Made by a program: the position numbers and the translations under genes
Notes under the pieces: generated by a model
Seen by the model: the letters and a program-made list of their open reading frames with translations, nothing else
Databases searched by the model: none
Told to the model about the DNA's origin: nothing
Shown: positions 3,368-63,888 of the stretch, piece by piece
Layout of the letters: each line of letters opens with the position of its first letter
How positions within the stretch are numbered: position 1 is the stretch's first letter
NCBI RefSeq assembly: GCF_014876185.1
Contig: NZ_JADALJ010000001.1
Coordinates: 4,217,001 to 4,281,000, forward strand
Length of the DNA stretch: 64,000 bases
Reading direction: 5' to 3'
Source of the DNA: Rufibacter sp. LB8
GTDB lineage: Bacteria > Bacteroidota > Bacteroidia > Cytophagales > Hymenobacteraceae

Positions 3368-3407
3368 CCGTTTTCGGACTCATTTCCAGAAATGAGCCCG
3401 AAAACGG
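3368..3407. repeat. Dispersed palindrome copy 1 (A/A')
   Basis: A near-perfect 40-bp palindrome starting CCGTTTTCGG and ending CCCGAAAACGG. It starts one base after the barrel gene's stop codon, between convergent genes, where it could serve as a two-way terminator. Confidence 0.9.
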
Positions 3408-3433
3408 AAGGCGTTACTTGCGTGAAAGGAAAA

Positions 3434-4033
3434 TTACCGGTCTAGTGATTCCACCAGGTATTCATTGCGGTACAGCGTGTAGCAGTACACGTGGCGTTTC
3501 TCGCCGTTGCTGGTTTCATGGGCGGTGGGGGCCAGCATCTTGCGCTGGCTGAAACCGCTGCGCTCTGCTACGCGCTGGCTTTTGGTGTTTTCCTGGGCGC
3601 AGCGCACGTTAATGCTCGTCATCCGGAGTTCCTGAAACCCAAAGCGCAAGATTTCCTTCAGGGCCTCTGTGGCAAAGCCCTGGCCTTCCTGGCTGGCGTG
3701 CAGGTAATACCCCACTTCGGCGAACAGTTTTCCACGGGCCAGTCTTCTTAAAGAAATATCGCCAATATAGTCGCCGTTGTCTTTGCGCCAAAGCCCAAAA
3801 CCGTACAGATCGCCGCGCCGCCGCTGGGTGGTGAGCACATTGATGCGCTCCTGGGCGTCTTCCACGGTTTTCACGGCGCTGGTGCGGTCCGGGAAATCGG
3901 CTTTTAACCGGTCCAGGTTTTCCTGCAGCAGCTGGCAGAAAACCGCCGCCATCTCGGGCTTGTACGGCCGAAGCCACAGCCGCTCTGTTTCTAACTCAGT
4001 AACAAGAATAAAGGAAACAGGCGATGAGTGCAT
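3434..4033 (-). CDS. GNAT-family N-acetyltransferase (RimJ/RimL-like)
   Basis: A 199-residue acetyl-CoA-dependent acyltransferase of the RimJ/RimL type. It has the start motif ETERLWLRPY, a central GDYIGDISLRRL strand pair, the acetyl-CoA loop ASQEGQGFATEAL, the following LRFGFQELRMTSINVRC segment and the NTKSQRVAERSGF motif. I chose the ATG at 4033 (MHSSPVSF). A frame open to 4240 would add 69 residues with no resemblance to the family. The acceptor (protein N-terminus or small molecule) cannot be told. Convergent with the barrel gene; the 265 bp upstream hold no gene. Confidence 0.85.
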   Translation of the reverse strand: MHSSPVSFILVTELETERLWLRPYKPEMAAVFCQLLQENLDRLKADFPDRTSAVKTVEDAQERINVLTTQRRRGDLYGFGLWRKDNGDYIGDISLRRLARGKLFAEVGYYLHASQEGQGFATEALKEILRFGFQELRMTSINVRCAQENTKSQRVAERSGFSQRKMLAPTAHETSNGEKRHVYCYTLYRNEYLVESLDR

Positions 4034-4298
4034 ATGAAAGCCGCTGGTTTTTCTCCTTCTCTCTACGCATCTACCTATGCCTGGATAACGAGCCATGGCC
4101 GGTTTCTGCAAAATAATTTTTACCGGAGAAGCACGTGAAACCAAGGCGCAGAAAGTACTGATTGCAATTCCTTGACCCTCAGCGGCTAGAAAAACTACTA
4201 TTGGTATAAATACGTAGAAGCATTTTCTTACCCCGCACACCTAATCCCGGCAGTTTGGCAGCATCTTTTCTCCACCTGGCTTCGGCTTTTCTATTTAC

Positions 4299-5216
4299 AT
4301 GACCACCAAAAAGTACGTTCGCTCTCTGCAGGAATACGGCCGTGGCATTATAGGCGGGCTGTTGTTCAGTTTGCCCATGCTCTACACCATGGAGGTCTGG
4401 TGGACCAGCTTTGACGTGAAACCGTACCAATTGCTGCTGTACCTGCTGGTGACCTATGTGCTGCTGCTGGCTTATAATACCTATGCCGGGCTTCGGGCCA
4501 CCGCCTCCTGGAAAGAGATTGCCATTGACTCTGTGGAAGAGATGGGGCTGGGGCTGGTCTTGTCTTTTGTTTTTCTGTGGCTGTTGGGGCAGTTTAACCC
4601 AGAGGCCATGTCGTTTGAGCGCTTGGTGTACCTCACAGTGGTGGAGGCCATGCCCATTGCCATTGGCGTATCTGTGGGCACGGCGCAGTTAGGTGCCTCT
4701 GCCCAGGACGAGGAAGAAGACCAGGAAGATGCCCCAGAAGCCGAACCCAACGCGCCGTCCCCAGACCGGGAAAGCCTGCTGGAGCAGATTATGCTGGCCA
4801 CCTGCGCTGGCATGCTGTTCGGCGCCAACATAGCCCCAACTGATGAAGTGCTGGAGATTGGCCTGAGCGCCACGCCTTTCCAGTTGCTGCTGTTGGTGTT
4901 GGTATCTTTGGTATTGAGCGCCAGCGTACTGTTTTACATAGAATTCAAAGGAACCGCCAAGTCCAAATCGCAACCACGGCCTGGGTTTATTGACGTGGCC
5001 AGCGGCCTGAGCGTGACTTACGCAGTGGCCTTTTTGGTGTCTGCCGGGGTGCTGTGGTTTTTTGGCCGGTTTGAAGGAGGCAGTTGGGAAACTGGGATAA
5101 AAGTAACCATTGTGCTCACCGTGGTGACCTCTTTGGGGGCTTCGGCGGGCAGGTTCCTGCTGGACCAGGAATTTATGGACAATGAAGACGAAGAACATGA
5201 AAAAGAGCCTTCTTGA
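4299..5216 (+). CDS. TIGR02587-type integral membrane protein
   Basis: A 305-residue protein with about seven or eight hydrophobic segments. An acidic cytoplasmic loop (about 134-155: QDEEEDQEDAPEAEPNAPSP) splits it into two membrane halves, and the C-terminus is acidic (DNEDEEHEKE). The pattern, and the partner gene that follows and overlaps, match the paired families TIGR02587/TIGR02588 of unknown function. The gene overlaps its neighbour by up to 35 bp, which implies translational coupling. No catalytic motif is visible. Family assignment is from memory of the pair, not from a search. Confidence 0.75.
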   Translation: MTTKKYVRSLQEYGRGIIGGLLFSLPMLYTMEVWWTSFDVKPYQLLLYLLVTYVLLLAYNTYAGLRATASWKEIAIDSVEEMGLGLVLSFVFLWLLGQFNPEAMSFERLVYLTVVEAMPIAIGVSVGTAQLGASAQDEEEDQEDAPEAEPNAPSPDRESLLEQIMLATCAGMLFGANIAPTDEVLEIGLSATPFQLLLLVLVSLVLSASVLFYIEFKGTAKSKSQPRPGFIDVASGLSVTYAVAFLVSAGVLWFFGRFEGGSWETGIKVTIVLTVVTSLGASAGRFLLDQEFMDNEDEEHEKEPS

Positions 5217-5574
5217 GTGGGTGGTGTTTGGTGTCAGCACCGCGCTGATCCTCGCCTTGATTGCCTACCTCAGCGTGAAAACCTACCATTACCAAGACAC
5301 GCCGCCAGACTTGCAGGTGCGCCTTATTCCAGAACAAGGAAAACAGGACCAGAACATTTACCGCGTGGAACTGGAAAACCTGGGCGAGCAGGTAGCGGAG
5401 AATGTGGCCGTGGAAGTGATGTTAGAGCAGAACGGCCAGGAACTGGAGACCACCCAGACCGCCTTTCCCATGGCGCCCAACGGCAGCGTAAAGCAAGCCT
5501 GGGTTACTTTCAGGACCACGCGCGCACCCGGGCAATCTACCAAGGTCCATATTTTAGGCTACAACAAACCCTAG
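5182..5574 (+). CDS. TIGR02588-type single-pass membrane protein
   Basis: A 130-residue protein with one N-terminal membrane segment (about 10-32) and an extracytoplasmic beta-rich domain (QNIYRVELENLGEQVAENVAVEV) that looks like an immunoglobulin-like or DUF11-like fold. It is the second member of the TIGR02587/TIGR02588 pair. Starts at 5182 and 5197 are both possible and both lie inside the preceding gene. A strong intrinsic terminator at 5611-5666 ends the two-gene operon. Function unknown. Confidence 0.75.
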   Translation: MKTKNMKKSLLEWVVFGVSTALILALIAYLSVKTYHYQDTPPDLQVRLIPEQGKQDQNIYRVELENLGEQVAENVAVEVMLEQNGQELETTQTAFPMAPNGSVKQAWVTFRTTRAPGQSTKVHILGYNKP

Positions 5575-5610
5575 GGCCACCTTATATTCAGCCTTTTCCT
5601 TGGGGAAAAC

Positions 5611-5666
5611 AAAAAATCCGGCCAGAGAAAACCTGTATCAATAGGATTCTCTGGCCGGATTTTTTT
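5611..5666. terminator. Strong bidirectional terminator
   Basis: A perfect 19-bp inverted repeat (5611-5629 with 5648-5666), AAAAAATCCGGCCAGAGAA, whose outer ends are A-rich on one side and T-rich on the other. It separates the convergent TIGR02588 gene and the gene at 5695-6123. Confidence 0.92.
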
Positions 5667-5694
5667 CTTCGGCAGAAGCCGCCACTACAAGATT

Positions 5695-6123
5695 TTATTT
5701 ATTGAGGAACGGGTAGTTGTACTGCAGCGGGCTGCCTAATTGCTGAAGACGGGCAATCACTTCCATGGAATGGGCAATCTCGTTGAAATACTCCAACCGT
5801 CTGATTAGTTGTTCTTTCAGGAGCACCGTGCCTTCGGGGGTGCGCAGGTAGGCGCGTTTGTCTTCCAAAATCTGGTGCATGGCCTCATACACGCGCTTGC
5901 TGTCTTTCATGAACAGGTCATGGAACTCAGAAAGGGCGTCAAAACCGTCTTTGGTCACTGTAAAGTCAAAGCCTTTGTGGTTGAGCACGTCGCAGAGCAG
6001 GTTCACCTCCAGGGGCATAGTGATGTGGTAGGGCGTGGTGCGCACGTCCAGCCCTTTTTTTATGTACCCGAAGATGATGTCCAGGTTGTTCTCAAAGCGT
6101 TCGTAGAGCGCGGCTGCTTCCAT
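5695..6123 (-). CDS. Hypothetical helical protein
   Basis: A 142-residue soluble protein, predicted mostly alpha-helical from its composition (ALYERFENNLDIIFGYIKK, RRLEYFNEIAHSMEVIARLQ), without signal peptide or membrane segment. No family recognised. It is followed by the strong terminator at 5611-5666 and lies 72 bp downstream of the FAD-binding enzyme gene on the same strand. The two may be co-transcribed, but nothing links their functions. Confidence 0.65.
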   Translation of the reverse strand: MEAAALYERFENNLDIIFGYIKKGLDVRTTPYHITMPLEVNLLCDVLNHKGFDFTVTKDGFDALSEFHDLFMKDSKRVYEAMHQILEDKRAYLRTPEGTVLLKEQLIRRLEYFNEIAHSMEVIARLQQLGSPLQYNYPFLNK

Positions 6124-6195
6124 GGTGTGGGTTGGTGGTTACGGTAATTAAACAAAAGTACGCAAGGTTCTTCTCTTTTTCACCCCGGCGGGGCA

Positions 6196-7614
6196 TTAAG
6201 ATGACAGGGCCTGGGGCGTTTTTGGCTCCGTTTCCAGAAATGAGCCCGAAAACAGAAGTTCCCGCGCCAAGGCTTGGGCCTGTTGCCTGAGTTCTGGTAC
6301 GGCGTTGGACTCCCACAGTTCGCCGCGCATGGTGGCCCCCAGCGTGAACAACCCGGGCACCGGTTTGCCGGCCCGGTCCAGCAACTGCCCGTGGGCGGTG
6401 GCGTTCACCCCAATGCCCAACGGGTGCGGCTGCAGCAAGCCCTGTGTTTTGAGGGAAGAAATAAGCGGGTCTGTAAGGTGTTGGTAGTTCTGCTGCGGCC
6501 CGGTGCACGTCACCAGTCGGCTCACGTCTAGCTCCCAAAGTCCGGTTTTTGATTGAATGGCCAACTGAAGGCCCTGCGCCCCAGTGGAGACCGCCTGCAA
6601 CCGGCCTGCTGTAATCTGCAACTGCCCGCGCGTAATGGCCTCCTGCACTACCTGGTGCACCTGCGGCGGTAACCTATGGCGCGCCACCGCCCACAAGGAG
6701 CCGAAGCGCCGCATGAATCTTTTTTTGTCTGGCAAAGAAAAACGGCGCCACAACTGTTGGGTGTGCGGCCTGATGCCGTTGACCAAGCGCTCCCAACTGT
6801 GTTTGCCGTGCTGCCGGCGGGCTTGGTTAAACAGGTTGAGCACTTCGGGCAAGGAAGAAGCTTTCTCTACCTTTTGGCTAAAAACTGAGTCTGATTCGGC
6901 GGTCTGGTAGGGGCGGGGCAGCAGGCCGTTGCTGGAGATGGCATGAATCTTCCCTTGAAAGCCAGTTTCCAGCAAGCCCATGATAATGTCAATGCTGGTG
7001 AGGCCGGTGCCCAACAGCGCAATGGTGTCTTGGTCGGTAAGGCCGTGCCAGGCCTGAGGCACCCAAGGGTCTGGGAAAAAATGGGAGTTCACCGCCTCCT
7101 GCGGAATCTGGCAGCGCAGCGCGGCCGGCAAGAAATTCCCGGTGGCCAGCACCACCTGCTGCGCTTTCAGGGTCTGGCCATTGGTCAAGGTAAGCGCGTA
7201 TTGACCATCAGGCGTTGCTTTGCAGCCGTTAGCCTTGGTAGAAAGAACTTCTATTTTATGAAATCCGCTGGCAGCCTGTATGGTTTCCTTCAGAATTTCC
7301 TCCAGGTACAAACCATATTGGCGGCGGGGCATGAAAGACGTTTCCAGTTCTGCCGCAGGTACGTTCGCAAACGCAGGCTGCCGCTGAAGCCAGTCCACGA
7401 AATGATGGGGTTGGTCTGGGAAAGCGCTCATGCGGCCGGCGTGCACATTCAACAGAAACACATCTGAGGCCGCCGAATACGCAATACCCTTGCCCGTGGG
7501 GTAGCCGTCATTGACCAGGCAGAGGTGGAGCGCCGTTTCTTGTTGCCGAAGCAATTGCACGGCCACCATGGTCCCGCTGAAACCTCCTCCTACTATGGCT
7601 ATGACTGTTTGCAT
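6196..7614 (-). CDS. FAD/NAD(P)-binding oxidoreductase (COG4529-like)
   Basis: A 472-residue flavoprotein. It opens with a dinucleotide-binding GxGxxG-type motif (IAIVGGGFSGTMVA, 5-18), then GKGIAYS and the NVHAGRMSAFPDQP segment typical of the NAD_binding_9 / HpxO-like group. A second nucleotide-binding motif, LLGTGLTSIDIIM, lies near residue 200, with VTCTGPQQNY further on. Substrate unknown. The last 19 or so residues (FSGSFLETEPKTPQALSS) are encoded by and just after a copy of the dispersed palindrome (6217-6256), so the natural C-terminus has probably been replaced or extended by that repeat. Start ATG at 7614 directly precedes the motif. Confidence 0.82.
   Translation of the reverse strand: MQTVIAIVGGGFSGTMVAVQLLRQQETALHLCLVNDGYPTGKGIAYSAASDVFLLNVHAGRMSAFPDQPHHFVDWLQRQPAFANVPAAELETSFMPRRQYGLYLEEILKETIQAASGFHKIEVLSTKANGCKATPDGQYALTLTNGQTLKAQQVVLATGNFLPAALRCQIPQEAVNSHFFPDPWVPQAWHGLTDQDTIALLGTGLTSIDIIMGLLETGFQGKIHAISSNGLLPRPYQTAESDSVFSQKVEKASSLPEVLNLFNQARRQHGKHSWERLVNGIRPHTQQLWRRFSLPDKKRFMRRFGSLWAVARHRLPPQVHQVVQEAITRGQLQITAGRLQAVSTGAQGLQLAIQSKTGLWELDVSRLVTCTGPQQNYQHLTDPLISSLKTQGLLQPHPLGIGVNATAHGQLLDRAGKPVPGLFTLGATMRGELWESNAVPELRQQAQALARELLFSGSFLETEPKTPQALSS
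6217..6256. repeat. Dispersed palindrome copy 2 (B/A'), inside a coding region
   Basis: Left arm of the TTTTTGGCTCCGTTT version, right arm AAATGAGCCCGAAAACAG. It lies wholly within the FAD enzyme's reading frame and supplies its penultimate codons (FSGSFLETEPKT). Confidence 0.88.
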
Positions 7615-7813: not shown

Positions 7814-7853
7814 CCGTTTTCGGGCTCATTATCAGAAATGAGCCCAAAAACGG
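7814..7853. repeat. Dispersed palindrome copy 3 (A/A')
   Basis: CCGTTTTCGGGCTCATT on the left and AAATGAGCCCAAAAACGG on the right, with a loop around ATCAG. It lies about 200 bp before the FAD gene start, away from any stop codon. Confidence 0.9.
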
Positions 7854-8010
7854 AAGAAGTGTTGTGTCCATAGCCAGTACCAACGTGGCCCTATGAAAAA
7901 GGAACGTCTCTATTAGCAAAGGCCTGTTTTCAAGGCAAAATTGCGCAAAAAGGGAAACGGTTTTTACTGTCTAGAACCACGTAGCTTACAGGGTACTGAC
8001 TGGCCTTCTC

Positions 8011-8050
8011 TGTTTTTGGCTTCGTTTTCAGAAATGAGCCCGAAAACGGA
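8011..8050. repeat. Dispersed palindrome copy 4 (B/A')
   Basis: Left arm TGTTTTTGGCTTCGTTTT, right arm GAAATGAGCCCGAAAACGGA. It ends two bases from the moxR stop codon, so it would form the 3' end of that transcript. Confidence 0.9.
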
Positions 8051-8052
8051 AA

Positions 8053-9018
8053 TTACAGCAAGCCTTGGATGATCTGCTCTACCGTGATGCCTTCGGCCTC
8101 AGCTTTGAAATTACGCACCAGGCGGTGGCGCAAGATGGGCACCGCCACCGCTTTCACGTCTTCAATGTCTGGCGAATATTTGCCGTTGATGAGTGCGTTG
8201 CATTTGGCGCCCATGATCAGGTGCTGCGACGCTCGGGGACCTGCGCCCCACTCCAGGTATTGGTTTGTCTGGGCACCGGCCAATTCTGTGTTGGGTCTGG
8301 TTTTGTGCACCAGTTTCACGGCATATTCCACCACATTATCCGTCACGGGCACGCGGCGCACCAGTTGCTGGAAGGCTACAATCTCCTCGGCCTGCAGCAC
8401 CACCTTGGGTTCATGTTTTCGGTCACCGGTGGTGTTTTTGACAATCTGGAGTTCAGCGGCATAACTGGGGTAGGAGAGGGCCACGTGGAACATGAAACGG
8501 TCCAGCTGCGCCTCTGGCAAGGGATAGGTACCTTCCTGCTCAATGGGGTTTTGGGTGGCCAGCACAAAGAACGGGCGCGGCAGATTGTAATGGTGCCCCG
8601 CCACGGTCACGCTGTATTCCTGCATGGCTTCCAGCAAAGCGGCCTGGGTTTTAGGCGGCGTGCGGTTAATTTCATCGGCCAGCACAATATTGGCGAACAC
8701 CGGGCCTTTCACAAAGTGGAACTGCCGGTTCTGATCAAGCGTCTCAGAACCCAGAATGTCTGAGGGCATTAAGTCTGGCGTGAACTGCACCCGGTTAAAA
8801 GACAGATCCAGGGAGTTGGAAATAGTCTGAATGAGCAAGGTTTTGGCTAGGCCAGGCACGCCCACCAAAAGACAATGCCCCTGACAGAAAACGGCCGTGA
8901 GCACTAGTTTCACCACTTCCTCCTGACCAATTATGGTTTGGGAGATTTCGGTGGTCAGGCGTTGGTAGGCCTGGTGCAGCGCATCGGCGGCTTCTTTGTC
9001 AGAGGCAAATGAAGGCAT
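8053..9018 (-). CDS. MoxR-type AAA+ ATPase
   Basis: A 321-residue AAA_3 ATPase thought to act as a chaperone in maturation of partner proteins. Walker A is GVPGLAKT at 53-60, Walker B VLADE at 112-116, followed by INRTPPKTQAALLEAMQE and the sensor LATQNPIEQEGTYPLPEAQLDRF. The usual partner genes (DUF58, von Willebrand A proteins) are absent; instead the gene lies 10 bp downstream of a SurA-like isomerase on the same strand, suggesting an operon serving envelope protein biogenesis. Confidence 0.93.
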   Translation of the reverse strand: MPSFASDKEAADALHQAYQRLTTEISQTIIGQEEVVKLVLTAVFCQGHCLLVGVPGLAKTLLIQTISNSLDLSFNRVQFTPDLMPSDILGSETLDQNRQFHFVKGPVFANIVLADEINRTPPKTQAALLEAMQEYSVTVAGHHYNLPRPFFVLATQNPIEQEGTYPLPEAQLDRFMFHVALSYPSYAAELQIVKNTTGDRKHEPKVVLQAEEIVAFQQLVRRVPVTDNVVEYAVKLVHKTRPNTELAGAQTNQYLEWGAGPRASQHLIMGAKCNALINGKYSPDIEDVKAVAVPILRHRLVRNFKAEAEGITVEQIIQGLL

Positions 9019-9028
9019 AAGGGAGAAT

Positions 9029-10490: not shown

Positions 10491-12782
10491 TTACTTTTTA
10501 AGCAGGCGCTGTACTTCTGTCTGGTTTACACTCACCGGGTATTTCTGTTTTAACTCTTTGATCCATTCTTTCTCCAGGTGGTTCTGGTAATCTGAGATCA
10601 CCTGGCCTCTGGTTTCATTCAAGGCTTTGGGGGCCGGGGCCTCCACCTGGTCAATCTTAATCCAGACGGTTCTGCCGTCTACGGTGGCAGTGTAAGTGCC
10701 CGGGGCCCAATTCACCGCGTCTAGCGCCTTGTTCTCCCCCCGCTGAAATTTCTTAGACTGCACCTGCAGCGCCAAGGCATTGTTTTGGTTTAGCTGGTCG
10801 GCCAGGGTCTGGATATCTGTGGAATAAACCTTCACGCCTACTGCCCGGCCATTCTTGCCAGTGACAGCGGCCACCTGCAGGCTTTCTGCGCCTACGCCCT
10901 TCTGCTGCAAATAATTTCTCACTGCCGTGGCCCGGCGCTGGGCCAATGAGCTGTTGGTTCTGTTACCGGCTTCACGGGCATCAACGGCTGCATTTAACTC
11001 AACCATTAAGGTAGAATCTGCCTGTAAAGCCGCCGCCAGTTTGTCTAGTTCAGCAGTAGCTGTTTTAGAAAGAACGTCTGAGTTGGCATCAAATTTCAGT
11101 TCGGGTACTTTATGGCGCACTGAAAGGTACTTGCCTTGCGGTAATTGTTCCTGCGCCTGGGCCAGCACCGTGGGGTTGGCAGCGCTCAGAATGGTAGCCT
11201 TGGCGCGGGTGCCCCACATGTATTTGTCGCGGTTCTGTTCAAAGAAGGCTTTCAGGCCCACCGTGTCTTCCACGGCTTTGGCCCACACTTTCTCCTCCAT
11301 GAGTTGGAACAGCAGAATACCGTCATGGTACTCGTTCACCAGCATTTTGTAGTCTTTGTGTTTTTCCTCCAGGTGGTCGCGCTCATAGTTCAGCAGGCTG
11401 GTTTCCACGAAACGGTCATACAGTAGGTTCATGGCGTGCGTAGCCGAAGCGTTCTGGCGCGGGCGTTGGTTGGTTTCAATAAACGTGGCAAAAGCCCCCA
11501 CGGTGTAAGGTTGGTCTTTGATGGTGAACAGCGTGGCCGAAGGCAGATTTTTAGGCTCAGCCGGTACGTTGAATTTCCAGGTGCCAGTAATTAAGGAAGA
11601 GTCTGCCAATTGTAGCGTGGCTGCTTTAATGGCGGGTACTTCCTTGAACTGGTTTTCGGTTTTGATTCTTCTGATGAAAGCGGTTTTATTTAGTTCTGAG
11701 CGTGAGTCTTTGGCAATGCGGTTGCGTAGCGAAGTCTCCATCTCCTCATAAGAAGGTAGTTCTTTGCGTTCCAGCAGTTTAATGATGTGCCAGCCGTAGG
11801 CCGTCTGCACCGGCGGAGAAATAGCCCCAGGTTTGTCTAAGGCAAAGGCAGCTTCCTCAAATGAAGGAATCATGCGGCCCGTCCCGAACAAGGGTAATTC
11901 ACCGCCTTGGTCCGCGGAGGCAGCGTCTTCAGAGAACTGTGAAGCCAGCATGTTCCAGTCCTCTTTGCGTTGCACGCGCTTGTAGAGTTCGTCAATTTTC
12001 TTTTTGGCCACCAATGAATCGGCCTTGGGCAGGCCTTGCTGGGCGCGCACCATGATGTGGGCCACTTTAATCTCGCCCTGGGCCGGACGTACCTCGTTTA
12101 CTTTTACCAGGTGGTAGCCAAAGCGCGTTCTCACCGGCTGCGAAATTTGCCCGGCAGGGGTGGTGAAAGCTGCGTTCTCAAACGGGTATACCATTTGTAA
12201 GGCCGTAAAGTATCCTAAACTGCCGTTGTTCTCACGCGCCGATGGATCTTGGGAATGCTGCTTAGCCAGAGTCTCAAACGGGGTGCCGCTCAAGGCCTGC
12301 TGGCGTAAATCCGTTATTTTTTGAAAAGCAGCTAAGGTGTCTTTGGGATCAGCCTCCTGGTCAACGGTGATGAGGATGTGCGCTGCGTTTACTTCTTTCT
12401 TCAGGCGCTCATAGGCTTCCCGCACCAGTTGGTCGGTCACGCTTTTCTCTGTAAGATACGGCTGGGCCAATTGCTCTTTGTAACCGCTCAGTTCTTTCAC
12501 AAAAGATTGCGTGGTGTCTAACCCACGGGCCTTTGCTTCAGCTACCTTCAGTTTGAAATTGGTGTACAGGTCCAGGTATTCTGTGATGCTGGCTGCGGAA
12601 TAGGCGCTGTCTGCGTTGCCGTTGTTCTTTTCATAGACATAGGCAAATTCTGCCGCAGGAATGGTTTCTGCGCCAATAGTAAGCAGGACAGGCTCAGTAG
12701 TCTGCTTGGGAGAAGTACACTGGGTGAGGAGCAGGGCGCCAAGGCCCAGGTAAAGGTTTGAAACGCGCATAGTAATTGGCAA
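10491..12782 (-). CDS. Large PPIC-domain lipoprotein with OmpA-like segment
   Basis: A 763-residue predicted lipoprotein with lipobox LLLTQC (Cys 22; a start at 12770 would shorten the N-terminus by 4). Two parvulin repeats follow: AAHILITVDQEAD...SQDPSARENNGSLGYF near 135-230 and VAHIMVRAQQG...SEDAASADQGGELPLF near 240-345. Towards the C-terminus (about 565-660) a stretch with KFDANSDVLS, then NSSLAQRRATAVRNYLQQKG, resembles the OmpA-C peptidoglycan-binding fold. It is likely an envelope foldase anchored in a membrane. It is first in the cluster with surA and moxR; 112 bp separate it from surA. Confidence 0.88.
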   Translation of the reverse strand: MPITMRVSNLYLGLGALLLTQCTSPKQTTEPVLLTIGAETIPAAEFAYVYEKNNGNADSAYSAASITEYLDLYTNFKLKVAEAKARGLDTTQSFVKELSGYKEQLAQPYLTEKSVTDQLVREAYERLKKEVNAAHILITVDQEADPKDTLAAFQKITDLRQQALSGTPFETLAKQHSQDPSARENNGSLGYFTALQMVYPFENAAFTTPAGQISQPVRTRFGYHLVKVNEVRPAQGEIKVAHIMVRAQQGLPKADSLVAKKKIDELYKRVQRKEDWNMLASQFSEDAASADQGGELPLFGTGRMIPSFEEAAFALDKPGAISPPVQTAYGWHIIKLLERKELPSYEEMETSLRNRIAKDSRSELNKTAFIRRIKTENQFKEVPAIKAATLQLADSSLITGTWKFNVPAEPKNLPSATLFTIKDQPYTVGAFATFIETNQRPRQNASATHAMNLLYDRFVETSLLNYERDHLEEKHKDYKMLVNEYHDGILLFQLMEEKVWAKAVEDTVGLKAFFEQNRDKYMWGTRAKATILSAANPTVLAQAQEQLPQGKYLSVRHKVPELKFDANSDVLSKTATAELDKLAAALQADSTLMVELNAAVDAREAGNRTNSSLAQRRATAVRNYLQQKGVGAESLQVAAVTGKNGRAVGVKVYSTDIQTLADQLNQNNALALQVQSKKFQRGENKALDAVNWAPGTYTATVDGRTVWIKIDQVEAPAPKALNETRGQVISDYQNHLEKEWIKELKQKYPVSVNQTEVQRLLKK

Positions 12783-12883
12783 AATGCTTGCCGCCCAAGC
12801 CCGCTAGGCCTGAACGTTATGCAATTTTACTCATTTTTTTGGACAGAAACGGGTATTTTAAAAAACATACGCCAAAGAAAGAA

Positions 12884-12902
12884 CCCAGGGCGAAACCCTG
12901 GG
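12884..12902 (-). terminator. Hairpin, likely terminator of the partner-switch operon
   Basis: CCCAGGG and CCCTGGG pair around a 5-nt loop. Read on the minus strand the hairpin is followed by TTCTTTCTTT. It lies about 75 bp after the stop of the anti-sigma kinase gene. Confidence 0.65.
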
Positions 12903-12978
12903 ACTAACGTGACCTTTTGGTGAAAACTGGCAGTATGCTGTATTTATTGTGCCCACGTGCGAAAATGTGGGCTGGAGA

Positions 12979-17524: not shown

Positions 17525-17564
17525 CCGTTTTCGGGCTCATTTTGGGAAATGAGAGCAAAAATGG
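17525..17564. repeat. Dispersed palindrome copy 5, right arm degenerate
   Basis: The left arm CCGTTTTCGGGCTCATTT is intact; the right arm reads GAAATGAGAGCAAAAATGG. It lies 64 bp beyond the stop of the DUF5615 gene. Confidence 0.85.
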
Positions 17565-18675: not shown

Positions 18676-18699
18676 TGCGCCTGCCGTGGCCAGGGGTTT

Positions 18700-18737
18700 C
18701 GTTTTGGGGCTCATTTGTGGAAACGGGGCCAAAAACG
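18700..18737. repeat. Dispersed palindrome copy 6 (degenerate) just before pnuC
   Basis: CGTTTTGGGGCTCATTTGTG followed by GAAACGGGGCCAAAAACGCC. It ends three bases before the ATG at 18741 and so would sit in the 5' leader at the translation start. Confidence 0.8.
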
Positions 18738-18740
18738 CCT

Positions 18741-19351: not shown

Positions 19352-19390
19352 CCGTTTTCGGGCTCATTTTCAGAAACGGGGCCTAAAACA
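19352..19390. repeat. Dispersed palindrome copy 7 (A/B')
   Basis: CCGTTTTCGGGCTCATTTT then CAGAAACGGGGCCTAAAACA. It starts 11 bp after the pnuC stop. Confidence 0.88.
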
Positions 19391-19459
19391 GCTGCGTATG
19401 TATTTATGAAGTCTTAAATTTTTACAACATCGCCAACCAAACACCTGCGGCTGTTACCC

Positions 19460-20251: not shown

Positions 20252-20290
20252 CCGTTTTTGGCCTCATTTCCGGAAATGAGCCCCAAAACG
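20252..20290. repeat. Dispersed palindrome copy 8
   Basis: CCGTTTTTGGCCTCATTTC then CGGAAATGAGCCCCAAAACG. It lies between the barrel stop and the TTG start of the kinase gene. Confidence 0.88.
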
Positions 20291-20312
20291 TCATCCTTTC
20301 AACCGTACGCCC

Positions 20313-21754: not shown

Positions 21755-21794
21755 CCGTTTTCGGCTTCATTTCCAGAAATGAGCCCGAAAACGG
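21755..21794. repeat. Dispersed palindrome copy 9
   Basis: CCGTTTTCGGCTTCATTTCC then AGAAATGAGCCCGAAAACGG. It directly abuts the stop codon of the epimerase gene and closes the pnuC cluster. Confidence 0.9.
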
Positions 21795-23565: not shown

Positions 23566-23899
23566 TTTATCTATTTCTGCCAACACCTGGATAATTACAC
23601 CAGTACAGTTATTGGGTATACAAATTGAAAGGAATAGGTATATTTATCTGCTGTTTTCAATAGATAACTTTACCTTTTACGTCCATATTCCTATTGCCTA
23701 AGCAAGAATAAAAAGTATAAAAAAGGAAAAGGCCATCTCCGTTTTCGGCCCCATTTCCCGAAATAAGCCCCAAAACGCTACAAATTAGTATGCTAGCGGA
23801 AGCTTTTCTGCTGACTTTTAATTGACCTAATACTGCAGACGGCTTCCAAAGCCAAGTGCGAAACACTTTCCTTCGCTTGCCCAGGAAACGCACCAGTGC
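23566..23899. other. Intergenic region with one palindrome
   Basis: 334 bp between two minus-strand genes. Apart from the palindrome at 23739-23778 I see an AT-rich stretch and no convincing gene. Confidence 0.6.
23739..23778. repeat. Dispersed palindrome copy 10, mildly degenerate
   Basis: CCGTTTTCGGCCCCATTTCC then CGAAATAAGCCCCAAAACGC. Compared with the consensus both arms carry substitutions. Confidence 0.82.
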
Positions 23900-27230: not shown

Positions 27231-27269
27231 ACGTTTTCGGGCCCTGAAATAGAAATGGGGCGAAAACCA
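27231..27269. repeat. Dispersed palindrome copy 11 (degenerate)
   Basis: ACGTTTTCGGGCCCTGAAAT then AGAAATGGGGCGAAAACC. First member of composite unit A. Confidence 0.72.
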
Positions 27270-27311
27270 GCAACTGTAGAGACTAGGCACCGCCTTGTCT
27301 CTACAGTTGCT
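27269..27311. repeat. GTAGAGAC hairpin
   Basis: 15-bp perfect arms around TAGGCACCGCCTT. A homologous hairpin is at 63802-63830. Confidence 0.8.
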
Positions 27312-27331
27312 GCCATGGACAACACCGCCTG

Positions 27332-27584: not shown

Positions 27585-27624
27585 CTGTTTTCAGCTTCGT
27601 TTCTGAAAATGAGCCCGAAAATAG
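27585..27624. repeat. Dispersed palindrome copy 13
   Basis: CTGTTTTCAGCTTCGTTTCT then GAAAATGAGCCCGAAAATAG. It lies about 35 bp before the candidate PBP1a promoter box; an AACAATCAACAAC-type AT repeat precedes it (27555-27580). Confidence 0.85.
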
Positions 27625-30041: not shown

Positions 30042-30080
30042 CCGTTTTCGGGCTCATTTCTGGAAACGGAGCCAAAAACA
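30042..30080. repeat. Dispersed palindrome copy 14 (A/B')
   Basis: CCGTTTTCGGGCTCATTTCT then GGAAACGGAGCCAAAAACA. It begins 3 bp after the PBP1a stop, and its right end overlaps a separate terminator stem. Confidence 0.9.
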
Positions 30081-30118
30081 GAAAGGCCAACCCTAACAAG
30101 GTTGGCCTTTCTGTTTTT
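30074..30118. terminator. Strong bidirectional terminator
   Basis: A perfect 19-bp inverted repeat, AAAAACAGAAAGGCCAACC with its complement at 30100-30118, flanked by A- and T-runs. It separates PBP1a from the convergent ParE gene and shares its first seven bases with palindrome copy 14. Confidence 0.93.
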
Positions 30119-33817: not shown

Positions 33818-33857
33818 CCGTTTTTGCCTTCATTTCCAGAAATGAGCCCGAAAACGG
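33818..33857. repeat. Dispersed palindrome copy 15
   Basis: CCGTTTTTGCCTTCATTTCC then AGAAATGAGCCCGAAAACGG. It lies 10 bp beyond the stop of the gene at 33868. Confidence 0.9.
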
Positions 33858-34297: not shown

Positions 34298-34337
34298 CCG
34301 TTTTCGGGCTCATTTCTGAAAATGAGCCCGAAAACGG
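34298..34337. repeat. Dispersed palindrome copy 16, perfect consensus
   Basis: CCGTTTTCGGGCTCATTT, loop CTGA, AAATGAGCCCGAAAACGG: perfect 18-bp arms. It lies 35 bp beyond the pirin stop. The rest of 34144-34372 is AT-rich without a gene. Confidence 0.95.
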
Positions 34338-38861: not shown

Positions 38862-38900
38862 CCGTTTTCTGCCTCATTTCTGAAAACGAGGCCGAAAACA
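38862..38900. repeat. Dispersed palindrome copy 17 (A/B'-like)
   Basis: CCGTTTTCTGCCTCATTTCT then GAAAACGAGGCCGAAAACA. It lies 8 bp beyond the stop of the pyrophosphatase-like gene. Confidence 0.88.
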
Positions 38901-38908
38901 GCCAGCGG

Positions 38909-39587: not shown

Positions 39588-39627
39588 GCGTTTTCGGGCT
39601 CATTTCCAGAAATGAGCCCGAAAACGC
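39588..39627. repeat. Dispersed palindrome copy 18, perfect
   Basis: GCGTTTTCGGGCTCATTTCC then AGAAATGAGCCCGAAAACGC; the outermost base pair has changed on both sides compared with CCG...CGG, keeping the palindrome. It lies 35 bp beyond the M1 peptidase stop. Confidence 0.95.
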
Positions 39628-42956: not shown

Positions 42957-42996
42957 CCGTTTTCGGGCTCATTTATGAAAACGAAGCCAAAAACGG
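42957..42996. repeat. Dispersed palindrome copy 20 (A/B')
   Basis: CCGTTTTCGGGCTCATTTAT then GAAAACGAAGCCAAAAACGG. Confidence 0.9.
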
Positions 42997-43045: not shown

Positions 43046-43085
43046 GCGTTTCTGGGCTCATTTCTGAAAACGAAGCCAAAAACGG
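43046..43085. repeat. Dispersed palindrome copy 21 (A/B')
   Basis: GCGTTTCTGGGCTCATTTCT then GAAAACGAAGCCAAAAACGG. It lies 47 bp before the ATG of the first M20 gene and 49 bp from copy 20: a close tandem pair. Confidence 0.87.
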
Positions 43086-45224: not shown

Positions 45225-45232
45225 TACCTTTG
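45225..45232 (+). promoter_or_regulatory. Candidate -7 box of second M20 gene
   Basis: TACCTTTG fits TAnnTTTG; it merges into the left arm of the palindrome at 45231 and lies 47 bp before the ATG. Confidence 0.45.
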
Positions 45233-45269
45233 TTTTCGGGCCCGTTTCTGAAATGGAGCCCGAAAACGG
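45231..45269. repeat. Dispersed palindrome copy 22, in the 5' leader
   Basis: TGTTTTCGGGCCCGTTTCTG then AAATGGAGCCCGAAAACGG. It lies 9 bp before the ATG of the second M20 gene, so it would form a hairpin in the leader of that mRNA. Confidence 0.87.
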
Positions 45270-46601: not shown

Positions 46602-46641
46602 CCGTTTTCGGGCTCATTTTCAGAAACGGAGCCAAAAACGG
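46602..46641. repeat. Dispersed palindrome copy 23 (A/B')
   Basis: CCGTTTTCGGGCTCATTTTC then AGAAACGGAGCCAAAAACGG. It begins at the first base after the M20 stop codon. Confidence 0.92.
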
Positions 46642-47830: not shown

Positions 47831-47872
47831 CCCGTTTTCGGGCTCATTTCTTGAAACGAGCCCGAAAACGGG
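47831..47872. repeat. Dispersed palindrome copy 24
   Basis: CCCGTTTTCGGGCTCATTTC then TTGAAACGAGCCCGAAAACGGG: arms extended by one base pair. It lies between convergent genes, 41 bp beyond the SDR stop. Confidence 0.92.
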
Positions 47873-48738: not shown

Positions 48739-48904
48739 GTTGGTTGTTTACGGCTGATTGTTCAAAATGCGTTTTGGGGCTCATTTCTGGAAACGAAGCC
48801 AAAAACACATGAGTGGGTGCCAACGAATCTGGAAACCTAAACCAGCGAAAAGAAGGGGAGAACTCGCTGCACCAGACTTTAAAAACAATCAGCAATCAAC
48901 AACA
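48739..48904. repeat. AACAATCAAC-type AT repeat arms around a palindrome
   Basis: AATTGTTGGTTGTTTACGGC at 48739 and ACAATCAGCAATCAACAAC near 48886-48904 are roughly reverse complements, with palindrome copy 25 between them. Similar sequence is at 27555-27580 and 55977-56045. Confidence 0.6.
48769..48807. repeat. Dispersed palindrome copy 25 (A/B')
   Basis: GCGTTTTGGGGCTCATTTCT then GGAAACGAAGCCAAAAACAC. Confidence 0.85.
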
Positions 48905-51386: not shown

Positions 51387-51426
51387 CCGTTTTTGGGCTC
51401 ATTTCTGGAAATGAAGCCGAAAACGG
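51387..51426. repeat. Dispersed palindrome copy 26
   Basis: CCGTTTTTGGGCTCATTTCT then GGAAATGAAGCCGAAAACGG. It lies 8 bp beyond the stop of the gene at 51435. Confidence 0.91.
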
Positions 51427-55255: not shown

Positions 55256-55295
55256 CCGTTTTCGGGCTCATTTCTGAAAATGAGCCCGAAAACGG
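55256..55295. repeat. Dispersed palindrome copy 27, perfect consensus
   Basis: Identical in both arms and loop to copy 16 (34298). It lies 5 bp beyond the pseudouridine-synthase stop. Confidence 0.95.
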
Positions 55296-57029: not shown

Positions 57030-57071
57030 CCCGTTTTCGGGCTCATTTCCAGAAATGAGCCCGAAAACGGG
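57030..57071. repeat. Dispersed palindrome copy 28, perfect
   Basis: CCCGTTTTCGGGCTCATTTC then CAGAAATGAGCCCGAAAACGGG plus one more paired base. It lies 31 bp beyond the lptD stop. Confidence 0.95.
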
Positions 57072-59802: not shown

Positions 59803-59925
59803 GTAAAATTTGTGTTATTTTGTTACTGAGAACGCGTTAAAAATCTGGCTTTGTATGTTAAAGTCAATTGCAAGCACACTCTCAGATGCAAAGTTATCAA
59901 CAATAGCTTTTAACTAACGCATACC

Positions 59926-60702: not shown

Positions 60703-60715
60703 CTACTCCCAAACT

Positions 60716-61729
60716 GTGAAATTTTCCAAAGAACTCAAGGTGGCGTTGCTAGGTATTGTGGCCGTTGCAGCGCTCTACGTGGGCTTTCTATTCCTTAAAG
60801 GAACCAACGTCTTTTCCTCTACCCGTACGTTTTACGTGAATTATGAAAGTGTGCAGGGCTTGGCCGTGTCCAGCCCGGTGGTGGTCAACGGCTTTAGGGT
60901 AGGCCTGGTGAAGGAAATGAACCTGCAGGCTGAAAAAGGCAACAAGATTCTGGTAGCCCTTGACATTGAGAAAGATATTGACATTGGGGACTCCACCGTG
61001 GCCATGCTGGTAAGCCAGGACCTGCTGGGCGGCAAGTCCATTGAACTGTACATGGGCCGCAACACCAAACGCTTCAAAGGCGGCGAATACCTGATTCCGT
61101 TCACCCGCGAGAGCATCACCGAAGTGTTCACCAAGCGCGCCATGCCCGTGCTGGAAACCGTGGACTCCACCTTGATCCGGCTTAACTCGTTCCTGGACAA
61201 AGACGCCAAACGCAGCATTCAGGCCATTTTATTAAACGCCGAGGCAACCTCCGAAGCGCTTAGAACCATTGCCATGGCCAACCAGGGCAACATCAACCAG
61301 ATCACCAGCAACCTGGCGGGCCTTACCGCGTCTCTAAGACAAACCGAGGCCAAGTTCAGCCGTCTGGCAACCAATCTGAACACGCTGTCTGACACCTTGG
61401 ATGTAGCCGCCATGAACAGCGCCATCAGAGGCCTGGACAGCACCGTGGCGCAGGCCCAGCTCACCATGCGCAGGCTCAATGAGAACAACGGCAGTTTGGG
61501 GAAACTCATGAGCGATGACTCCTTGTACCGCAACCTCAACGCCAGCAGTGAAAGTCTTGATGCCTTGCTGAAAGACCTGAAGGCCAACCCTAAGCGCTAC
61601 GTGCATTTCTCATTGCTGCAGATTGGCGGCGGCACCAAGGTTGACAAAGCCAGCAACGTGAAAGAAGCAGATAAAGTGAAAAATGCGGGCACCGTTGAAA
61701 AGGCCGGCACGGTGCAAGAGAAGAAGTAA
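60716..61729 (+). CDS. MlaD/MCE-domain lipid-transport protein
   Basis: A 337-residue protein with one N-terminal membrane anchor (about 7-27) and an MCE domain (about 35-115: FYVNYESVQGLAVSSPVVVNGFRVG, then SQDLLGGKSIELYMG). A long helical region follows (about 150-290; LNAEATSEALRTIAMANQGN), ending in a charged repetitive tail (VKEADKVKNAGTVEKAGTVQE). Probably the substrate-binding part of a phospholipid transporter to or from the outer membrane; the ATPase and permease are not in the window. GTG start, 13 bp after the amidase. Confidence 0.9.
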   Translation: MKFSKELKVALLGIVAVAALYVGFLFLKGTNVFSSTRTFYVNYESVQGLAVSSPVVVNGFRVGLVKEMNLQAEKGNKILVALDIEKDIDIGDSTVAMLVSQDLLGGKSIELYMGRNTKRFKGGEYLIPFTRESITEVFTKRAMPVLETVDSTLIRLNSFLDKDAKRSIQAILLNAEATSEALRTIAMANQGNINQITSNLAGLTASLRQTEAKFSRLATNLNTLSDTLDVAAMNSAIRGLDSTVAQAQLTMRRLNENNGSLGKLMSDDSLYRNLNASSESLDALLKDLKANPKRYVHFSLLQIGGGTKVDKASNVKEADKVKNAGTVEKAGTVQEKK

Positions 61730-61751
61730 TCAAATTTAATAATAGGGAGAA

Positions 61752-61792
61752 AGCGTTTTCGGGCTCATTTTCAGAAATGAGCCCGAAAACGC
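61752..61792 (+). terminator. Dispersed palindrome copy 29 acting as probable terminator
   Basis: AGCGTTTTCGGGCTCATTTT then CAGAAATGAGCCCGAAAACGCT, directly followed by TTTTTT. It lies 22 bp after the mlaD stop, and its outer pairs are changed to GCG/CGC so the stem runs into the T-run: the clearest case of a palindrome that fits an intrinsic terminator. Confidence 0.85.
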
Positions 61793-61858
61793 TTTTTTGT
61801 TGTAGCCGTATGCCTGTAAACTAGTGCCTAACAGGTGTTAGCTTTTCCAGAAAATTTC

Positions 61859-61866
61859 TATATTTG
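61859..61866 (+). promoter_or_regulatory. Candidate -7 box of the carboxylase gene
   Basis: TATATTTG matches TAnnTTTG exactly, 50 bp before the ATG at 61916. A TTA at 61838 lies where TTG would be expected. Confidence 0.55.
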
Positions 61867-61915
61867 TACAGCCTGCCTAGGGCTTACACGCAAAACCTCA
61901 CGCATCAGCAGAACT

Positions 61916-63544
61916 ATGGATATTGAATTCAACAAGAACGAAGACGCGCTCAAACAACTCTCATTCCAGTTAAAGTCGAAATTGGCCAAAGTGGCGCTGG
62001 GCGGCGGCGAGAAAGCCATTGCCAAGCAGCACGAGAAAGGCAAACTCACCGCCCGTGAGCGCATTCAATATTTAGTAGATGAGGGTTCTGAGTTTCTGGA
62101 GATAGCCGCCTTCGCCGGCGAGGGCATGTACCTTGAGTACGGTGGTTGCCCGGGTGGCGGCGTGGTGGCGGGCATTGGCTACGTGAAAGGCCGGCAGTGC
62201 ATGATTGTCGCCAATGACGCCACCGTGAAAGCGGGCGCCTGGTTCCCCATCACGGCCAAGAAAAACCTGCGGGCCCAGGAAATTGCTATGGAAAACCGAC
62301 TGCCGGTAATCTATCTGGTAGACAGCGCCGGCGTGTTTCTTCCCATGCAAGACGAGATTTTCCCCGACAAAGAGCACTTCGGGCGCATGTTCCGGAACAA
62401 CGCCATTATGAGTTCTGAGGGCATCGTGCAGATTTCGGCCATCATGGGTTCCTGCGTGGCTGGTGGCGCGTATCTGCCCATCATGAGCGACGAAGCCATG
62501 ATTGTGGAAGGCACCGGTTCCATCTTCTTGGCCGGTTCTTACCTGGTGAAAGCCGCCATCGGCGAAACCATTGACAATGAAACCCTGGGCGGCGCGTCCA
62601 CCCATTCAGAGATTTCCGGCGTCACCGATTATAAATTTGAGACTGACCAGGAATGCCTGGACCACATCCGGAACATCTTTGATAAAATGGGTGATACGCC
62701 CAAAGCCGGTTTCAGCCGCATATCATCGGCGCAGCCCAAACTAGACCCCAAAGAAATCTACGGAATTCTGCCCCAGGACCGCGTGAAGCCCTATGATATG
62801 ATGGACATCATTCATCGGCTGGTAGATAATTCGGAATTTGAGCCTTACAAAGATTTGTACGGTCAGAGCCTGATCTGCGGCCTGGCGCGCATTGACGGTT
62901 GGGCCGTGGGCATTGTGGCCAACCAACGCAAGATTGTGAAAAGCAAGAAAGGCGAAATGCAGATGGGCGGCGTGATCTATTCAGACTCCGCAGACAAAGC
63001 CGCGCGCTTCATCATGAACTGCAACCAAAAGAAAATTCCCTTGGTGTTTTTGCAAGACGTATCTGGGTTCATGGTAGGCAGCAAAGCCGAACACGGCGGC
63101 ATTATCAAAGACGGCGCCAAGCTGGTGAACGCCATGAGTAATTCTGTAGTACCCAAGTTTACCATTTTGATTGGCAACAGCTACGGAGCGGGCAATTATG
63201 CGCTCTGCGGCAAAGCCTATGACCCCCGCCTGATCTATGCCTGGCCCACCGCGCAATTGGCGGTTATGTCTGGTGCCTCGGCGGCCAAAACCTTGCTGCA
63301 GATTCAGGTGGCCTCGCTCAAAGCCAAAGGCGAAGTCATCACCCCCGAAGCCGAGAAAGAACTCCTGGACAAAATCACAGCCCGTTACAATGAGCAATTG
63401 AGCCCCTATTATGCGGCGGCCCGGCTTTGGGTAGACGGCATCATTGATCCGCTGGAAACTAGAAAAGTTATTTCCATGGGCATTGAAGCCGCCAACAACG
63501 TGCCCATCACCAAACCCTTCAACGTGGGCGTGATACAGACCTAA
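61916..63544 (+). CDS. Acyl-CoA carboxylase beta (carboxyltransferase) subunit, MccB-like
   Basis: A 542-residue carboxyltransferase. Crotonase-like fold with GGGEKAIAKQHEKGKLTARERI at the N-terminus, LEYGGCPGGGVVAGIGYVKG, MGSCVAGGAYLPIMSDEAMIVEGTGSIFLAG (read in pieces), LGGASTHSEISGVTDY, FLQDVSGFMVGSKAEHGG, GNSYGAGNYALCGKAYDPR and the end WPTAQLAVMSGASAAKTL. The GGAYLPIMSDEA loop resembles methylcrotonyl-CoA more than propionyl-CoA carboxylases, pointing to leucine breakdown. The biotin-bearing alpha subunit is not in the window. ATG 61916 is chosen; the frame is open from 61835 across the promoter box. Confidence 0.93.
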   Translation: MDIEFNKNEDALKQLSFQLKSKLAKVALGGGEKAIAKQHEKGKLTARERIQYLVDEGSEFLEIAAFAGEGMYLEYGGCPGGGVVAGIGYVKGRQCMIVANDATVKAGAWFPITAKKNLRAQEIAMENRLPVIYLVDSAGVFLPMQDEIFPDKEHFGRMFRNNAIMSSEGIVQISAIMGSCVAGGAYLPIMSDEAMIVEGTGSIFLAGSYLVKAAIGETIDNETLGGASTHSEISGVTDYKFETDQECLDHIRNIFDKMGDTPKAGFSRISSAQPKLDPKEIYGILPQDRVKPYDMMDIIHRLVDNSEFEPYKDLYGQSLICGLARIDGWAVGIVANQRKIVKSKKGEMQMGGVIYSDSADKAARFIMNCNQKKIPLVFLQDVSGFMVGSKAEHGGIIKDGAKLVNAMSNSVVPKFTILIGNSYGAGNYALCGKAYDPRLIYAWPTAQLAVMSGASAAKTLLQIQVASLKAKGEVITPEAEKELLDKITARYNEQLSPYYAAARLWVDGIIDPLETRKVISMGIEAANNVPITKPFNVGVIQT

Positions 63545-63611
63545 TTAAGAATTGGGAATTAGGAATTAAGAATTGAAGGCGATGAATTAGAAATTCGTCA
63601 GCCTCTGCAAA

Positions 63612-63654
63612 ACCCGTTTTCGGGCTCATTTCTGAAAATGGGCCCGAAAACGGG
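63612..63654. repeat. Dispersed palindrome copy 30
   Basis: ACCCGTTTTCGGGCTCATTT, CTGA, AAATGGGCCCGAAAACGGGT: 20-bp arms with one mismatch. It lies 67 bp after the carboxylase stop. Confidence 0.93.
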
Positions 63655-63684
63655 TTTTGCATTTTTAGGCTGGTAAAAGTTTCA

Positions 63685-63719
63685 CTGTTTGGAGTCTTCC
63701 GAAGGGTGCCTCCAAACAG
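63685..63719. repeat. CTGTTTGGAG hairpin
   Basis: Perfect 10-bp arms at 63685-63694 and 63710-63719. Confidence 0.75.
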
Positions 63720-63730
63720 GAAGGTTTTTT

Positions 63731-63777
63731 GGCGAAGACGCTCGTAGGAGTTGCGCACACTACGAGCGTCTTTTGAG
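63731..63777. repeat. AAGACGCTCGTAG hairpin
   Basis: AAGACGCTCGTAG pairs with CTACGAGCGTCTT; homologous, inverted, to 27332-27374. Confidence 0.8.
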
Positions 63778-63801
63778 TAACCTTCTGTCGGTTCCTCCAC
63801 C

Positions 63802-63830
63802 GTAGAGACAAGGCAGTGCCTGGTCTCTAC
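63802..63830. repeat. GTAGAGAC hairpin
   Basis: GTAGAGAC and GTCTCTAC arms around AAGGCAGTGCCTG; homologous to 27269-27311. Confidence 0.8.
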
Positions 63831-63847
63831 AACCTGATACCGAATTC

Positions 63848-63888
63848 CAGTTTCGCTTCCATTTCCAATTCAGAGCCCGAAAACGCAA
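63848..63888. repeat. Dispersed palindrome copy 31 (degenerate)
   Basis: CAGTTTCGCTTCCATTTCCA then ATTCAGAGCCCGAAAACGC. Outer member of composite unit B. Confidence 0.7.

Follow-up and report, generated by a model that had tools for sequence, protein, structure and literature searches.

A REP-like extragenic palindrome family in Rufibacter and its possible role as a DNA site at transcription-unit borders

The window analyzed herein is a 64,000-nucleotide stretch of the Rufibacter sp. LB8 genome (NZ_JADALJ010000001.1, positions 4,217,001 to 4,281,000), in which one palindromic element of 40 bp recurs. The element comprises two 18-base half-sites flanking a 4-base YYRR centre, and its most conserved columns are GTTT, TTT, AAA, and AAAC. 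An ungapped 40-mer scan identified 28 copies at ≥27/36 consensus matches and 32 places at ≥24/36, on either side of the 31 copies counted in a first-pass annotation of this DNA. Single arms with up to three mismatches matched 42 times in the window against 0.08 expected from shuffling. We found that the palindrome copies are old and that many are kept at orthologous places.

Twenty-seven of the 28 copies are described here, the 28th (start 2782, within a called gene) being left out; strand is undefined for all of them, and "same place" refers to a distance to the anchor gene that agrees within 8 bp. Copies at the same place in each relative compared were those at 3368..3407 (4/4 relatives; 1 bp from a stop codon in a convergent gap), 8010..8049 (4/4; 3 bp from the stop of the gene at 8053-9018 on the minus strand), 18699..18738 (10/10; in a divergent gap), 38862..38901 (4/4), and 51387..51426 (2/2). 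The place was the same in 10/13 relatives for the copy at 20252..20291, in 13/14 for that at 27585..27624, which lies upstream of a promoter-like stretch preceding a PBP1a-like gene, and in 2/3 for that at 30042..30081, located 3 bp past the stop of the PBP1a-like gene, where a canonical terminator hairpin (30074-30118) overlaps its last eight bases. The same was found for 46602..46641 (3/5; first base directly 3′ of a stop codon), the perfect palindrome at 57031..57070 (2/3), and 61753..61792 (2/3). The latter has GCG/CGC outer pairs, as does the copy at 39588..39627; these paired outer changes, reported in the first-pass annotation, are real in both copies, its start of 61752 for one of them being off by a base. 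An unrelated 21-bp inverted repeat (CAGCAACTGTAGAGACTAGGC..., 27268-27312) is also present in the gap preceding the PBP1a-like gene.

For other copies the gap was occupied in relatives at a different place. These were 7814..7853 (gap occupied in 4/4 relatives, same place in 0), 17525..17564 (8/8, same place by the 8-bp rule in 0), 33818..33857 and the perfect palindrome at 34298..34337 (1/1 each), the aforementioned 39588..39627 (5/6, same place in 0), 47832..47871 (2/3, same place in 0), 48769..48808 (1/1), and the perfect palindrome at 55256..55295 (3/5, same place in 0). The gap was unoccupied in the one relative compared for 19352..19391 and in all three for 42957..42996 and 43046..43085. 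The copy at 6216..6255 is within a called gene, near the gene end, and that at 21755..21794 has its first base directly 3′ of a stop codon; those at 23739..23778, 45230..45269, and 63614..63653 were recovered by the 40-mer scan.

No copy was found by the scan between 8,050 and 17,524, in line with the empty region (8.05-17.4 kb) that the first-pass annotation had pointed out. This copy-free stretch may in part reflect local loss, because within it the gap at 12771-12978 holds a palindrome in all seven relatives that have the gap and none in LB8, an apparent loss. Two other gaps within the stretch were occupied in 0/7 and 1/8 relatives.

Across the whole LB8 genome (4.75 Mb, two contigs), a 36-base pattern with up to three mismatches matched 682 places, and its reversed control matched none. 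In a 464-kb sample, consisting of the window and 20 stretches of 20 kb with genes called by a simple custom caller, 197 copies were identified at ≥27/36, with at least three per stretch and none in a base-shuffled control. Copy number outside the window is thus not low, and extrapolation gives about 2,000 copies per genome. The density was 4.4 copies per 10 kb in the chromosome sample, or one in roughly 2 kb. The second contig (G000:C2, L200-L207, 155 kb) carried nine copies, or 0.58 per 10 kb, seven to eight times fewer per kb. Among 203 LB8 copies, 94 had two CATTT arm endings and 68 had one CATTT and one CGTTT; the class with two CGTTT arms was outside the 12 commonest classes. The first-pass annotation could not name the family, and this still stands: an Rfam search of the window returned no family at its gathering score, and no published description was found in the literature searched, a coverage outside which most subscription journals lie.

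The PBP1a-like protein of the window had named relatives at 83-88% identity in Rufibacter and Sabulibacter species. Of 100 family genomes, four matched the LB8 consensus itself (≤3 mismatches), namely LB8 and, at one place each, three others of the genus. The layout of the arms was common to the genus, and consists of CYGTTT(T/A), eight variable bases, TTT, the 4-base centre, and the mirror image. A strict pattern of this layout recovered copies in 10 of 11 named Rufibacter/Sabulibacter loci, few in some, with none at the glacialis locus. With an ungapped pair model (threshold 14), trained on 22 LB8 copies and 31 from relatives, the density ranged from 1.7 to 5.8 copies per 10 kb over the 16 Rufibacter-genus sets, of which glacialis is one; shuffled sequence gave no copy, nor did 222,650 bp of Hymenobacter, Mucilaginibacter, Pedobacter, and Pontibacter. 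The 31 copies from relatives had been preselected by the GTTT, TTT, AAA, AAAC pattern and a pairing filter, such that invariance in the 53-copy alignment is partly by construction. A covariance model (R1) built from the same 53 copies matched 14/14 Rufibacter-genus genomes among 60 family genomes (at least 78-110 matches each), and of the other 46 only two matched, with two weak matches each. Among 148 genomes of the order, strong matches were present only in LB8, and four others had one to three marginal matches; the family- and order-wide searches are evidence of presence, not of copy number.

The extent to which copies resemble each other within a genome differed between lineages. At 11 variable arm positions, within-genome identity was 0.62-0.74 in LB8, G012, G017, G022, ruber, roseus, and immobilis, and 0.43-0.49, equal to the between-species level, in hautae, D00344, latericius, glacialis, sediminis, and G006, with psychrotolerans, Sabulibacter, and XAAS being intermediate; seven of the sets compared have only 5-13 copies. 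At shared sites the LB8 version was found in LB8 (10 copies listed) and other versions in the relatives, which indicates that the sequence version has changed in place. The family is Rufibacter-wide, with its layout kept and its spelling often lineage-specific.

Conservation of place was assessed in 205 gap-by-species comparisons with genes as anchors. Both gaps were occupied in 80 comparisons, LB8 only in 14, the relative only in 25, and neither in 86 (odds ratio 19.7; an earlier comparison on fewer data gave 66/19/24/71 for both, LB8 only, relative only, and neither). Relatives hence carried a copy in 80/94 comparisons where the LB8 gap has one and in 25/111 where it has none. The Fisher p of 5e-20 for shared gap occupancy is overstated because the species are not independent. 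Further, of the 84 occupied comparisons 56 agreed in distance to within 8 bp, where the null gave 27.7 (standard deviation, sd, 3.9; maximum 40).

Retention of copies was followed in two close species pairs. From hautae to D00344, 68 of 99 hautae copies lay in alignable DNA, and the aligned site was strong in 56, weak in three, and below zero in nine; by eye, several of the nine can be recognised as decayed palindromes, and in about three the site is unrelated sequence. From D00344 to hautae, 69 copies were covered, of which 53 faced a strong site, eight a weak one, and eight none, about three of them facing unrelated sequence. From G017 to G022, 15 of 17 copies were strong, one weak, and one none, with 15/15 in the reverse direction; in this pair, flanks of the copies were only 35-78% identical. 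Under simulated neutral decay with uniform substitutions, 29% of hautae copies would be kept at a divergence of 0.15 and 16% at 0.20, and for G022 the kept fraction would fall from 22% at 0.25 to 1-3% at 0.35-0.40. The kept places, together with retention far above simulated neutral decay, argue that the copies are old and selected. In ungapped pairs whose flanks matched at 60% or more of positions, hautae copies (34 pairs) had identities of 94.5% in conserved columns, 79.4% in variable columns, and 81.9% in flanks, and the reverse comparison (40 pairs) gave 93.6, 78.5, and 81.0%. A by-eye impression that the palindrome evolves faster than its flanks was contradicted by the counts. Since copies in hautae and in D00344 are not homogenised, ectopic conversion is no easy explanation of their retention. 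Judged from these alignments, the copies appear to be under selection in both species pairs.

These results bear on the possibility that the palindrome is a purely selfish replicator, similar to repetitive extragenic palindromic (REP) sequences or REP doublets forming hairpins (REPINs), that is moved by a REP-associated tyrosine transposase (RAYT), has no host role, and accumulates where insertion is least harmful. We consider this improbable: places are conserved across the genus, retention exceeds neutral decay, and none of the copies faced a gap of 30 bases or more in 169 covered comparisons. The first-pass annotation had proposed a host-domesticated, non-autonomous element. Domestication agrees with copies kept at orthologous sites and with the constraint on conserved columns; a non-autonomous element is plausible as an origin. 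Of empty sites such as a MITE would be expected to leave, no gap of that size faced a copy, and by eye about three copies per direction between hautae and D00344 faced unrelated sequence.

By location, the 197 copies of the sample comprised 99 in tandem gaps, 49 in convergent gaps, 31 in divergent gaps, nine within called genes, and nine at stretch edges. The proximity to stop codons noted in the first-pass annotation extends to the sample, in which 148 copies face a stop codon at a median distance of 35 bp, 100 of them within 70 bp and 43 within 10 bp. Of the 99 copies in tandem gaps, 70 were closer to the stop than to the start, against 49.4 (sd 5.1) under random placement. This 3′-side and convergent preference is as described for REPs (PMC3733652), and would suit a selfish replicator. 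The spacing of copies points the other way, in that usually no more than one palindrome is found per intergenic gap: gaps with two or more copies numbered 11 in LB8 (26.7 expected at random, sd 2.8) and 18 in relatives (62.9, sd 4.6). Of 172 start-facing sides, 17% had a TAnnTTTG motif within 100 bp, lying between copy and gene, compared with 3% on the other strand, which places the promoter downstream of and outside the palindrome. A promoter role of the palindrome itself was ruled out, as TAnnTTTG sits on the gene side of the copy.

The first-pass annotation had favoured use of the element as a 3′ hairpin, and the peak of copies directly 3′ of stop codons is what a terminator or mRNA stabiliser acting as RNA would produce. 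If pairing took place in RNA, G-U pairs would be favoured. The 369 tandem copies, read in transcript sense, had 454 G-U pairs against 479 A-C mismatches, and the 222 copies within 70 bp of a stop had 251 against 270; with no G-U excess over A-C, the RNA-hairpin reading fails. Moreover, 81 of 640 copies were in divergent gaps, and asymmetric copies had no clear orientation relative to genes. Replication-strand orientation of asymmetric copies, also considered, gave no clear pattern. With the palindrome interior masked, canonical terminators were found in 16/67 LB8 tandem gaps with a copy and 9/73 without, in 20/35 and 6/11 LB8 convergent gaps, and in 64/218 and 63/294 tandem gaps of relatives; masking weakened the tandem-gap association of terminators with copies (p 0.082 in LB8, 0.049 in relatives). 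Tandem gaps included separate terminators before or after the palindrome. The convergent gaps of relatives had fewer canonical terminators with a copy (35/75) than without (33/49; p 0.028), which counts in favour of an RNA hairpin. Conventional bidirectional intrinsic terminators likewise place a palindrome between convergent genes; the Rufibacter palindrome differs from these in lacking a transcript-sense G-U bias and in coexisting with canonical terminators. A role as RNA terminator or stabiliser was rejected on the G-U test and this coexistence, and we regard it as very unlikely.

Pairing between the arms was also weaker evidence for a stem than the first-pass annotation had taken it to be. 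Cross-species covariation stands, with 87.7% of cells paired in the 53-copy alignment against 77.0% when shuffled, in a sample that was pairing-filtered; in LB8, among copies selected by sequence only, pairing was barely above column composition (0.783 vs 0.776, z 1.7), and pairs 1, 2, 7, and 8 covary. In LB8 the palindrome looks more like two half-sites that match one consensus, and less like a coupled stem. Strong hairpin selection, as first read from cross-species covariation, was weakened by the filtered alignment and by the little coupling in LB8.

The nearest known kind of the Rufibacter palindrome is REP/REPIN, as it is REP-like in size, number, and place. REPs are 20-40-bp intergenic palindromes of very high copy number near 3′ ends, mostly in convergent or tandem gaps (PMC3733652). 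Six Y1_Tnp matches were found in LB8, and a RAYT-like protein from it, used as a query, gave 58 matches spread over 15 of the 16 genus genomes, a further likeness that would also suit a selfish replicator. Unlike REP/REPIN, the Rufibacter palindrome lacks a GTAG or CGTC tag, its copies are usually singlets, not inverted pairs, with fewer multi-copy gaps than random, its RAYT loci are not enriched in flanking palindromes, and many of its places are common to the genus. The absent tag and the one-per-gap spacing speak against the selfish reading. In its favour are the near-perfect LB8 copies, which are rarer at shared places, and the more decayed copies of G017, in which no RAYT-like protein was found. 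Orthologous copies scored 41.6 in G017 and 49.3 in G022 (15 pairs, Wilcoxon p 0.015), and eight ungapped orthologous pairs had nine deviations in G017 against one in G022; this one contrast is suggestive of a link to RAYT. Y1_Tnp genes were also present in genomes of other genera without the palindrome. RAYT as the sole cause is unsupported by flanking counts, a clade comparison, and G017.

TnpA_Y1 subclass 2.6 is described as mostly from Bacteroidetes, with genes flanked by untagged structures, termed weaker structures, that have copies elsewhere in the genome (PMC6006769). The Rufibacter RAYT-like fragments carry parts of its protein signature as given there (PMC6006769): all three of NH[LIV]H, WQ, and YIH[QN]NP in 8 of 40 fragments and two in 20 of 40. 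The palindrome may resemble the subclass 2.6 structures, going by their description (PMC6006769). A RAYT of the TnpA_REP subclass 2.6-like type is a plausible candidate source of the palindrome.

Several RAYT loci had features of their own. One R. ruber RAYT-like gene is surrounded by eight palindromes, two of them weak, within 2.4 kb (L237:230-2617), an unusual density that would suit a selfish replicator. Around another locus, LB8 and G022 were 98.7% and 96.3% identical (L220:658-1369 and 2171-2920 vs L222:1311-2022 and 2053-2802), far above the 79% of the PBP1a-like gene between the same genomes, which points to recent exchange between species; the exchanged region in G022 includes a palindrome of the LB8 version. 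Near the RAYT, a noncoding block of about 90-120 bp (L220 about 2192-2281) was 83-95% conserved between LB8 and roseus, sediminis, immobilis, and glacialis, and may be a structured RNA or a leader. Of the Y1_Tnp matches in the genome, the best was a 146-amino-acid IS200-like TnpA (L034:1414-1854), about 26 kb past the window end.

An exchanged locus would also be compatible with a DNA uptake signal with species dialects, homogenised by biased transformation. The DNA uptake sequence (DUS) dialects of Neisseriaceae similarly involve many dispersed sites, species dialects, and inverted pairs near gene ends, and the Rufibacter dialects, at an extrapolated 2,000 or so copies per genome, resemble them (PMC3630211). 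The Rufibacter site differs in being a full 40-bp dyad that is mostly intergenic, with no lone half-sites in the sample: of 236 arms, none were lone (≥16/18 bases) and only five were in coding DNA, whereas intragenic DUS are described as common (PMC3630211). We therefore assign this explanation a negligible likelihood.

Another alternative is that the palindrome serves the host as a regulatory dyad for a dedicated Rufibacter DNA-binding protein, unrelated to RAYT, and that the sequence versions arose as about 2,000 sites and this protein co-evolved. RAYT is not enriched at palindromes, the family is present in RAYT-less G017, the LB8 half-sites match the consensus nearly independently (0.783 vs 0.776), and constraint is seen in genomes with non-homogenised copies, all of which fit a dedicated protein. 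Conversely, outer pairs 1, 2, 7, and 8 covary in LB8 and four other genomes are above the pairing expectation, the distribution around genes is like that described for REPs (PMC3733652), and no candidate protein turned up, no genome-wide search having been aimed at one. On balance we find this alternative rather unlikely.

The reading that we prefer, with slightly more confidence than doubt, is that a REP-like extragenic palindrome family, found Rufibacter-wide, has been exapted into a strand-symmetric DNA site bordering transcription units; a host role at the DNA level is the most likely reading of the palindrome. Each copy would be a strand-symmetric 40-bp DNA site kept at such borders. A putative symmetric protein would bind the double-stranded palindrome, and the bound palindrome may then act as a border, be it a roadblock, an insulator, or a supercoil/topoisomerase site. 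In some lineages a RAYT-type TnpA_REP enzyme, subclass 2.6-like, would renew the sequence version throughout the genome; elsewhere the version would persist through purifying selection. A more specific proposal, which we put forward tentatively and with more doubt than belief, is that of genome-wide punctuation, in which each transcription-unit border would carry no more than one putative protein-bound dyad, some 2,000 in the genome by extrapolation. The dyad would serve as a two-way roadblock or insulator, and its dialect would drift and be rewritten in place at the sites of a lineage.

Multiple observations weigh against the preferred reading. Of the intergenic gaps 80-400 bp long, about half carry no palindrome (107/182 occupied in LB8, 296/621 in relatives), and the species that enter the gap comparison are not independent. 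Near-perfect LB8 copies (≥34/36) were at a shared place in 8/25 cases, compared with 48/59 for the others, such that part of the LB8 set may be newer insertions, which are likely among the near-perfect copies. A few hautae and D00344 copies face unrelated sequence in the other species of the pair, and selecting copies by their score in one species itself raises conserved-column identity. Among copies selected by sequence only, pairing exceeded column composition in G012 (z 4.4), G006 (3.7), D00344 (3.2), and hautae (2.3). With respect to renewal by RAYT, G017 carries the family without any RAYT found, and the genomes with sharp copies correspond to no RAYT clade when 40 RAYT-like fragments are arranged in a tree. 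Twenty RAYT loci, counted by hand from the 58 matches, were flanked by palindromes within 300 bp on both sides in 3/20 and on at least one side in 9/20, with controls at 0.11-0.19 for both sides. Finally, REP tags were absent: in the 8 nucleotides outside each end of the LB8 copies, GTAG, GGAG, GTGG, and CGTC occurred on 3, 1, 3, and 3 of 404 sides, and in a control 20 nucleotides further out on 5, 5, 4, and 4 of 404.

Extragenic palindromes are usually viewed as mobile clutter with occasional RNA roles. A family that keeps many places across a genus amid scrambled flanks, at no more than about one per border and without an RNA-strand bias, makes a host role of extragenic palindromes testable at the DNA level. 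The close pair G022 and G017 provides a natural contrast with and without RAYT, and the in-place renewal of very many sites would be a clean case for concerted evolution in bacteria.

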